This document shows positions 13,903-15,701 of a stretch of DNA of 37,695 bases, piece after piece (the first letter of the stretch is position 1; every line of letters starts with the position of its first letter). The notes beneath the pieces were generated by a model. It saw nothing but the letters and a program-made list of their open reading frames with translations. It was not told the origin of the DNA and searched no databases. The DNA lies in IMG/VR virus record IMGVR_UViG_3300033149_004032, positions 1 to 37,695 of that record; one strand, 5' to 3'. The translations under genes were made by a program, and so were the position numbers. Source of the stretch: a virus.

Positions 13903-14064
13903 AAAACCAGACAAAAGCCATCGGCAATAAACAGGAAAACCAGACAAAAGCCATCGGCAATATGGAGACAAAAACCGATGGCCACGGTCCACAATATAGC
14001 AAGGAAAACCGACAAAAACAATCGGCAATATGGCAGGGAAAGCCGACAAAGCACATCGGCAATA
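13903..14064. repeat. Iteron-like direct repeats (four copies, about 27 bp)
   Basis: Copies lie at 13903-13929, 13936-13962, 14005-14030 and 14039-14064. The first two are identical over 27 bases. The core is CC(a)GACAAA, 4-5 bases, then ATCGGCAATA, often followed by TGG. The first two start 33 bases apart and the last two 34. An inverted AACCGATGGC lies between copies 2 and 3. The array sits in the divergent non-coding region and is a candidate binding site set for a replication initiator or repressor. A 176-codon frame across it is judged spurious. Confidence 0.75.
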
Positions 14065-14106
14065 TGGCAAGAAAACCGGATAGGCCAGGTCTGGAACAGG
14101 AGAAAT

Positions 14107-14387: not shown

Positions 14388-14419
14388 ACGAACAAATTCT
14401 GTCTAAACACGTATATATA
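14388..14419 (+). promoter_or_regulatory. Bipartite motif, copy 1 (candidate promoter)
   Basis: ACGAACAAATT, 10 bases, ACGTATATATA. The same two blocks with the same spacing recur at 14677-14708. The motif is followed after 5 bases by tandem hairpins and a terminator-like structure. A sigma70 -35 box is not seen; CAAATT with TATAAA at a 17-base spacing is a poor match. It may be read by a phage or alternative sigma polymerase, or bound by an initiator. Confidence 0.5.
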
Positions 14420-14580
14420 AATACCTGCCCAGGGATGGGCAGAAACAAGCCCAGGATGGGCTTGGAAAGTGATAAGTTCTTTGAAAAGTGAATAGAGTTT
14501 ACAGATTGGCTCGAAAGCGGCTTGCCGCCTAACCAATCCAGCTTCCCTGGCGGCGTCAGCCGCTTTTCAAAGAATTTTTT
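14420..14580 (+). ncRNA. Candidate structured small RNA ending in a U-tract
   Basis: The plus strand between the candidate promoter and a T6 run can fold almost fully. Hairpin 1 is CTGCCCA-GGGA-TGGGCAG (14425-14442). Hairpin 2 is CAAGCCCA-GGA-TGGGCTTG (14446-14464). An outer 12-bp stem TTCTTTGAAAAG/CTTTTCAAAGAA (14477-14488 with 14563-14574) encloses GATTGG/CCAATC (14504-14509 with 14533-14538). Inside that is GCGG-CTTG-CCGC, a CUUG tetraloop, and beside it GCGGC-GTCA-GCCGC. T6 (14575-14580) follows the outer stem as in Rho-independent termination. About 160 nt; matches no RNA family I know. Confidence 0.5.
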
Positions 14581-14582
14581 AT

Positions 14583-14597
14583 TAAACACAGTGTTTA
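14583..14597. promoter_or_regulatory. 15-bp palindrome TAAACAC-A-GTGTTTA
   Basis: A perfect odd dyad directly after the T6 run of the candidate RNA. It may be an operator. Its half-site AAACAC also occurs in AAACACGTA (14405-14413), and inverted as TACGTGTTT at 14850-14858 and 14882-14890. Confidence 0.4.
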
Positions 14598-14676
14598 TTA
14601 TATATATACTTCAAGAAATATATTATAATTTTATTTATTTATTATTATTTATTATTATTTATTTATTATTTATTAT

Positions 14677-14708
14677 ACGAACAAATTATAATCTTGAACG
14701 TATATATA
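14677..14708 (+). promoter_or_regulatory. Bipartite motif, copy 2 (candidate late promoter)
   Basis: ACGAACAAATT, 10 bases, ACGTATATATA, identical in both blocks and spacing to 14388-14419. It lies upstream of a strong leader hairpin and then the whole rightward gene set, so it is the best candidate for the late promoter. Confidence 0.5.
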
Positions 14709-14724
14709 TTAAAATTAAATATAA

Positions 14725-14768
14725 ATATCTCTATATCCACCAGCCTGTAAGGGCTGGTGGATAGATAT
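14725..14768 (+). promoter_or_regulatory. Strong leader hairpin (12-bp stem)
   Basis: TATCCACCAGCC (14734-14745), loop TGTAAG, GGCTGGTGGATA (14752-14763) form a perfect 12-bp stem; ATATC/GATAT can extend it past a 4-base bulge. It is a GC island in AT-rich DNA, and no T-run follows directly. It would sit near the 5' end of a transcript from copy 2 and may protect or regulate it. Confidence 0.6.
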
Positions 14769-14788
14769 ATAATCCCTGATTTATAAAT

Positions 14789-14890: not shown

Positions 14891-14923
14891 TGTTTAATAT
14901 AAATATAAAAGGGCGATACTTCG

Positions 14924-15001
14924 ATGAGTAGTCAGAATGACTGCCAGACCAACGAACGAGTCGGCGGTCCGCTCATCCGAATGCCCGATTCCCCTGCCTA
15001 A
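14924..15001 (+). CDS. Possible 25-aa leader peptide before terminase
   Basis: A frame MSSQNDCQTNERVGGPLIRM... of 25 codons ending 34 bases before the terminase ATG. Only a distant AAGGG precedes it. It may be a leader peptide or chance. A longer frame from 14937 into the terminase gene has no ribosome site. Confidence 0.2.
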   Translation: MSSQNDCQTNERVGGPLIRMPDSPA

Positions 15002-15035
15002 CTGGGCGGGGGAAGTCTATGTTTGGAGACAGGTA

Positions 15036-15701
15036 ATGGGACGTAAACCGAAGCCGAAGCCGAAGGAAACACCTTTCGAGGCTGCCGAGCAGTATCATCC
15101 TGCTTACATCGAGTCGAGGCGAAAGAAAATTCATCGAGGGGCCAAGTTCAACTACGACTTCGTCGAGCTTGCTTGCCGCTTGAAGGCTGCTGGTTTCAGC
15201 GACGAGGACCTTGCCTATGCCTTCGGCGTCCATCACGATACCATCCGCCTTTGGCGACATCGCTTCCCAGAGTTCAAGAAAGCCTGCGAGGACGGCAAGA
15301 AAATGGCGGTGCAGTACCTTGTTGCCCGAGGGCTTCGGGCTGCGGCGGGCTACGAGTACGAGGAAGCGAACGAGAAGTACAAAACCGTGTTTGACCCGAA
15401 GACGGGCGAGACCAAGCAGGTCCTTGTCGGTAGAAGCGTTTTCAAGAAATACCAACCCCCTGATGCCCGCTTGCTTATGTTTATGCTCTCCAACCTTGAC
15501 CCAGAAAACTGGGCCAAATCTCACAAAATCGAGGTTGACGAGAACCGGAACATCAACATTCGGCTTCAGGGCGAGGTCGCCAGCGACCAAATCAGGCGGC
15601 TGGCAGGGGCTTTTCTCAACCAGTCCAAGGAAGTCGAGTCGAAAGTTATCGAAGAAAATGTCGAAGGGAGCGACGATGGACATAAAAATCGAGAGTCCTG
15701 A
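15036..15701 (+). CDS. terS: Terminase small subunit
   Basis: A 221-residue protein. The ATG at 15036 is preceded by GGAGACAGGTA, the same ribosome signal used by several later genes, so it is preferred over ATG 14937. A basic start (GRKPKPKPKE) leads to a helix-turn-helix: FVELACRLKAAGFSDEDLAY then AFGVHHDTIRLWRHRFPEFK. The C-terminal part has KYQPPDARLLMFMLSNLDPENW, typical of small terminases with an HTH. It should recognise phage DNA and guide the large subunit. It overlaps that gene by 26 bases, as usual for packaging pairs. Confidence 0.85.
   Translation: MGRKPKPKPKETPFEAAEQYHPAYIESRRKKIHRGAKFNYDFVELACRLKAAGFSDEDLAYAFGVHHDTIRLWRHRFPEFKKACEDGKKMAVQYLVARGLRAAAGYEYEEANEKYKTVFDPKTGETKQVLVGRSVFKKYQPPDARLLMFMLSNLDPENWAKSHKIEVDENRNINIRLQGEVASDQIRRLAGAFLNQSKEVESKVIEENVEGSDDGHKNRES

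Follow-up and report, generated by a model that had tools for sequence, protein, structure and literature searches.

A candidate phage leader RNA that combines CsrA-type hairpins with a boxA in the arm of a terminator-like stem

Which kind of RNA is formed by a strongly folded segment that lies between the genes of an uncultivated phage, oriented toward its packaging and capsid genes? We analysed this question for positions 14425-14580 of the virus record IMGVR_UViG_3300033149_004032, of which all 37,695 bases were taken as the window. The element sits on the + strand of an intergenic stretch and corresponds to an RNA of approximately 155 nucleotides (nt). An earlier note, made from the letters alone, had proposed a new structured RNA that matched no nameable class. 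Here, we propose that the element is a leader, or attenuator, of the rightward operon, in which a boxA-gated terminator is combined with CsrA-type hairpins at the 5' end, and we assign this reading a probability of about 0.5.

Fold of the element and its boxA arm

The region 14400-14600 folded at -76.7 kcal/mol, compared with -47.3 +/- 4.1 kcal/mol for 200 dinucleotide shuffles (z-score, -7.1), and none of the shuffles folded as well (0/200), supporting the proposal of a structured RNA. The tandem hairpins, the 12-bp outer stem and the T6 run described in the earlier note were all present in the sequence, and the components are as follows:

14425-14442, + strand: hairpin 1 (HP1), CTGCCCAGGGATGGGCAG, with a 7-bp stem and the loop AGGGAU on a C-G pair, of the A(N)GGAX type (from the fold; PMC4005645, PMC7652899)
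14446-14464, + strand: hairpin 2 (HP2), CAAGCCCAGGATGGGCTTG, with an 8-bp stem and the loop AGGAU on a C-G pair, of the A-GGA-X type (from the fold; PMC4005645)
14476-14495, + strand: extended boxA, GTTCTTTGAAAAGTGAATAG, one base off a string enriched in viral contigs
14477-14488, + strand: 5' arm of the terminator-like outer stem, TTCTTTGAAAAG, which is the boxA core and the perfect complement of 14563-14574
14516-14564, + strand: GC-rich inner hairpin, from prefix folding and boxA-masked folding
14563-14574, + strand: 3' arm of the outer stem, CTTTTCAAAGAA, complementary to boxA over 12 nt and forming with it a perfect 12-bp stem
14575-14580, + strand: tract of six U (U6), the terminator-like end of the RNA

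In the outer stem, the 5' arm reads GTTCTTTGAAAA, which matches the boxA form known from Bacillus rRNA leaders, and runs on into GTGAATAG; the extended string GTTCTTTGAAAAGTGAATAG agrees with the boxA consensus (GYTCTTTRAMAA-like). The boxA is an antitermination signal that brings Nus factors to RNA polymerase. With G-U pairs allowed, 15 contiguous bases of boxA paired with the segment flush with U6, which was reproduced in none of 100 shuffles, and at approximately 40 other boxA sites, no such arm abutting a U-run was found. When boxA was masked, the folding energy changed from -66.1 to -58.8 kcal/mol, and the remaining hairpin ended at 14567, 7 bases before the U-tract. Prefix folding placed the formation of the inner GC hairpin ahead of boxA arm pairing. 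This modelled geometry is consistent with a terminator whose formation requires free boxA. The outer stem, the GC inner helix and U6 together make a stable stem flush with a U-run, as expected of an intrinsic terminator. The earlier proposal of a structured RNA that closes with a terminator-like element of its own is well supported, at a length of approximately 155 nt, but the terminator looks conditional, its 5' arm being boxA.

For the inner part, a long-range pairing of 14516-14529 with 14549-14564 was predicted at -66.6 kcal/mol, whereas the local CUUG and GCGGC/GCCGC hairpins of the earlier note reached -57.5 kcal/mol, approximately 9 kcal/mol worse. The alternative pairings that it had anticipated were recovered as these two folds, but the local hairpins were not the preferred one; from the folding models, it is possible that either forms during transcription. 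The absence of an open frame held apart from one 14-codon GTG frame (14488-14532), which has its start within the boxA string and is probably a chance occurrence. This frame was dropped as a candidate leader peptide, since the boxA string in which it starts is also conserved ahead of tRNA genes.

The Rfam scan suggested in the earlier note returned no family at gathering thresholds, and relaxed thresholds gave chance-level matches only. The parts of the element can nevertheless be named, because the hairpin loops are of the CsrA/RsmA type and the outer 5' arm is an extended boxA. Both HP1 and HP2 carry GGA within an A(N)GGAX loop on a stem closed by C-G, as do the stem-loops of RsmZ, in which such loops measure 5-8 nt (PMC4005645); the HP2 loop lacks the N, like RsmZ stem-loops SL3 and SL4 (PMC4005645). 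For comparison, CsrB repeats read CAGGA(U/A/C)G, and the CsrA consensus from in vitro selection (SELEX, systematic evolution of ligands by exponential enrichment) is RUACARGGAUGU (PMC7652899, PMC4005645). The GGA motifs at 14433 (HP1) and 14454 (HP2) are 21 nt apart, within the 10-63 nt between sites that a CsrA dimer spans (PMC7652899), and a third GGA follows HP2 at 14464. Judged by its sequence, the element joins two recognisable signals, boxA and CsrA-type hairpins, each of a known kind.

Recurrence of the two signals behind phage promoters

The string CTTTGACAAGTGAATAG was found in 44 viral contigs, compared with 2 for the same letters reversed. Twelve of the 44 matches belonged to one Streptococcus repeat family with a TTGACA promoter and were rejected as boxA, since TTGACA there is the promoter element, leaving 32 versus 2. 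Most of the other matches lay in leaders, including those before the tRNA arrays of L132, L136, L142, L144 and L149. The exact window string preceded a tRNA in L017, an extended boxA stood directly 5' of the transfer-messenger RNA (tmRNA) gene in L135, and extended boxA sites in viral contigs were also found 5' of operons. The boxA before these tRNA arrays, tRNA and tmRNA was sometimes located right behind a terminator. Exact matches to a 19-mer of the window in L015, L016 and L018-L020 were judged coincidental. Separately, two similar TTGACA promoters with a 17-mer identical to boxA were observed in Streptococcus phage Javan576 (L154, 1500-1950), each before a short RNA unit; this locus presumably resembles a toxin-antitoxin locus of the par/fst type.

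We then considered 15 contigs, namely, the window and 14 contigs from phages whose terminase is related. In this set, the boxA 3' half, GA[AC]AAGT[GTA]AATA, occurred eight times, compared with one and zero occurrences of two control strings. The window aside, five of seven sites were located 6-28 nt after a promoter, while 3.4% of positions are expected within 110 nt. A contig whose terminase is 53% identical (L103; GenBank JAHPYZ010000033.1) contained TTGACT-17-TATAAT followed by GTTCTTTTTTAAGTAAATAGAGTG, in which 19 of 24 bases were the same as in the window. This 45-kb phage contig has bacterial-type sigma70 promoters, is filed in a Lokiarchaeota metagenome-assembled genome and is probably misbinned. 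A conserved leader with boxA (ATTTAATAnTGAGnGGGCAGATGTGAAATTAACCGCAACC...) was also observed 5' of the terminase in two related phages (L061, 5005-5460; L058, 1340-1840); it was rejected as a homologous element, being a different RNA or a small gene.

The CsrA-type hairpins also recurred. In the relatives, CAGG(G)ATG sites formed stems of at least 7 bp in 6 of 113 cases, compared with 89 of 7942 for other CA-N-TG loops (p 0.002). Eight CsrA-type hairpins occurred in the 14 contigs, and four of these eight were located no more than 80 nt downstream of a strong sigma70 promoter (11/12 match), a position expected for 0.4% of sites. Hairpins with A(N)GGAX loops numbered 26, compared with 6-15 for nine scrambled cores, and the promoter-proximal ones numbered 4 versus 0-1. 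The clearest parallel was a leader in G002 (L096; L166, 12300-12620), in which a strong sigma70 promoter (TTGACT-17-TATAAT) is followed by two tandem CsrA-type hairpins (GUACAGGAUGUAC and AUACAGGAUGUAU) and then tRNA-Ala. G002 was not counted as having a composite of hairpin and boxA, since the hairpin on the 5' side of its boxA overlaps the likely -35 element.

That both signals recur after promoters in related phages was computed directly, like the structure, the boxA identity and the CsrA-type loops of the element itself. From this recurrence, a group of uncultivated phages seems to set boxA and CsrA-type hairpins right after its promoters, and its transcription would thereby be linked to two global regulators of the host.

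Close relatives of the whole element were detected neither in viral nor in genome contigs. It was absent from phage relatives with a terminase large subunit (TerL) at 39-57% identity, and the complete composite was absent from the loci upstream of the terminase small subunit (TerS) in 60-odd TerL relatives. A search pattern of boxA-like arm, complement and U-run matched 16 viral contigs, all by chance and without the architecture, and a stricter form of this pattern gave no match in 85,000 genomes.

The proposed leader and its rivals

Leftward genes occupy the window up to approximately 13,580, and rightward genes start at approximately 15,037 with the small and large terminase subunits, followed by capsid and tail genes. 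Between them, two copies of a bipartite motif flank the element:

14388-14419, + strand: bipartite motif ACGAACAAATT-N10-ACGTATATATA, copy 1, which ends 5 nt before HP1
14677-14708, + strand: bipartite motif ACGAACAAATT-N10-ACGTATATATA, copy 2, after U6 and before the rightward operon
15037-15701, + strand: TerS, first gene of the rightward operon (PHROG 309, E 6e-26), with its ATG start at 15037 picked by eye from the sequence

The two copies were exact and had the same 10-nt spacing with differing spacer letters, while none was expected from 100 shuffles; copy 1 includes the -10-like TATATA/TATAAA. The motif may be an activator site or a promoter dependent on a phage factor.

From the sequence, we infer promoter use, transcription, termination, binding of Nus factors and CsrA, switching and regulation as follows. 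The element, which is probably transcribed, would form the 5' leader of a rightward transcript toward the packaging and capsid operon, with two CsrA/RsmA-type GGA hairpins, boxA and an intrinsic terminator that uses boxA as its 5' arm, in this order. Free boxA would pair with 14563-14574, and with the completed stem adjoining U6, transcription would stop after approximately 155 nt. If host NusB-S10 (S10 is NusE) bound boxA as it emerged, only the inner GC hairpin would form, ending 7 nt before the U-tract, and RNA polymerase, possibly modified by Nus factors, would continue into the operon. A single host CsrA dimer could bridge the tandem GGA hairpins, either protecting the 5' end of the RNA or providing an input of host state. 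Switching between the two states is plausible. If this is true, boxA doubles as a terminator strand, and Nus binding could block termination directly through occupancy of the stem; a simple attenuator with boxA as a terminator strand is not represented in the literature found.

Several points weigh against this proposal. At the other boxA leaders examined, boxA was unsequestered. The lower stem adjoining U6 is rich in A/U, which is weak for a terminator, and with boxA occupied, the inner hairpin followed by UUUU is a possible residual weak terminator. No sigma70 match of at least 10/12 was found at the bipartite motif, so its promoter role is a putative one, and from its position after U6, copy 2 may drive the operon without crossing the terminator. 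Neither the window nor 14 related phage records yielded a CsrA gene, so the partner would be a putative CsrA of the host. Only a single sequence is known to carry the composite of GGA hairpins and a boxA in the terminator arm, and all motif tests were devised after the sequence was seen, each with shuffled or scrambled controls.

A more ambitious version, which we offer only tentatively and consider rather unlikely, is that the leader senses two host regulators, CsrA on the GGA hairpins and NusB-S10 on the boxA arm of the terminator, so that occupancy of boxA would choose between a short CsrA-titrating RNA and the full operon transcript. If true, such a leader would tie phage gene expression to both the ribosome-making and the carbon state of the host.

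The main rival, which we regard as doubtful, makes the terminated RNA of approximately 155 nt itself the product, a trans-acting decoy whose GGA hairpins titrate host CsrA/RsmA in the manner of RsmZ, CsrB and McaS. The tandem A(N)GGAX loops on C-G pairs at bridging distance (PMC7652899, PMC4005645), the additional GGA at 14464, and the stand-alone size and terminator-like end, which recall RsmZ (127 nt, stem-loops and terminator), are all compatible with a decoy. However, RsmZ has eight GGA motifs, whereas the element has two GGA hairpins only and three GGA in 158 nt, short of the many GGA that characterize the decoy small RNAs CsrB and RsmZ, and it had no Rfam match to the CsrB, RsmY or RsmZ families. 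Unlike such decoys, it has its GGA hairpins at the start of a putative phage leader and couples them to boxA, which a decoy leaves unexplained, and the relatives carry such hairpins at the 5' ends of operons, not in stand-alone small RNAs.

An ordinary boxA leader is an unlikely alternative to the boxA-gated terminator; it would act by processive antitermination as in rrn operons, with the hairpins as 5' stabilisers or boxB-like spacers and the stem as an insulator that reuses the letters of boxA. The extended boxA in a putative transcript leader does resemble the nut-like Nus sites before rRNA, tRNA and phage operons, boxA before stable-RNA genes being a known arrangement of the rrn type (PMC4807359, PMC12691694), and in this phage family boxA directly follows promoters without a partner arm. 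The difference is that boxA here supplies the 5' arm for a predicted intrinsic terminator while it is free at the other sites examined, and the 15-base contiguous complement flush with U6 is well beyond chance (0/100). Unlike the lambda-type nut site, the hairpins stand before boxA instead of a boxB after it, and the proteins scanned included none that was recognisably N-like.

We consider it improbable that the element is a chance product without a regulatory role, consisting of GC-rich hairpins and a stop for transcription in both directions within an origin region rich in AT. The region lies at a GC-skew minimum beside iteron-like repeats, where odd structures are common, and neighbouring segments fold well too; against this stand the z-score of -7.1, a boxA 20-mer with a single mismatch, two CsrA-type loops side by side, and the recurrence of boxA and such hairpins after promoters in relatives.

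An ANTAR-type dual-hairpin antiterminator, as in the EutV system, is very improbable: two small tandem hairpins do precede a terminator and the HP1 loop AGGGAU has A1 and G4 (PMC3369931), but the HP2 loop is 5 nt without G4, so that the A1/G4 rule in two hexaloops fails, the linker is 3 nt, neither hairpin overlaps the terminator as the second one does in that system, and no ANTAR domain was found in the phage or its relatives. Two other systems were compared and, like ANTAR, rejected as the identity of the element on their features. In the put RNA of HK022, a phage transcript likewise begins with a pair of tandem stem-loops, which are proposed to affect downstream termination (PMC9378689), but the hairpins here are short, uninterrupted and followed by boxA. 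The LoaP-dependent dfn leader combines a leader hairpin with a leader terminator that is read through by an antitermination factor (PMC12691694), whereas the signal here is boxA; a NusG paralogue (PF02357) was found neither in the window nor in six relatives; the host may encode one.

Neighbouring features

No DNA similarity was detected between the window and annotated phages. The intergenic stretch that holds the element also contains repeats and the GC-skew minimum; at this minimum, 4-5 imperfect repeats of approximately 27-34 nt (AAAACCAGACAAAAGCCATCGGCAATA) at 13903-14091 are likely to be iterons of a replication origin. A perfect palindrome, TAAACACAGTGTTTA (14583-14597), stands after the U6 tract and ahead of copy 2 of the bipartite motif and is a possible operator. 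Directly after this second copy, a hairpin with arms of approximately 20 nt (CCACCAGCC/GGCTGGTGG) was observed at 14726-14771. The hairpin GUCAGAAUGAC at 14928 was initially classed with HP1 and HP2 and was dropped for want of GGA. Finally, a second strongly folded leader (z-score, -4.6), with an 11-bp hairpin at 14989-15014, was observed at 14905-15036, adjoining TerS on its 5' side.
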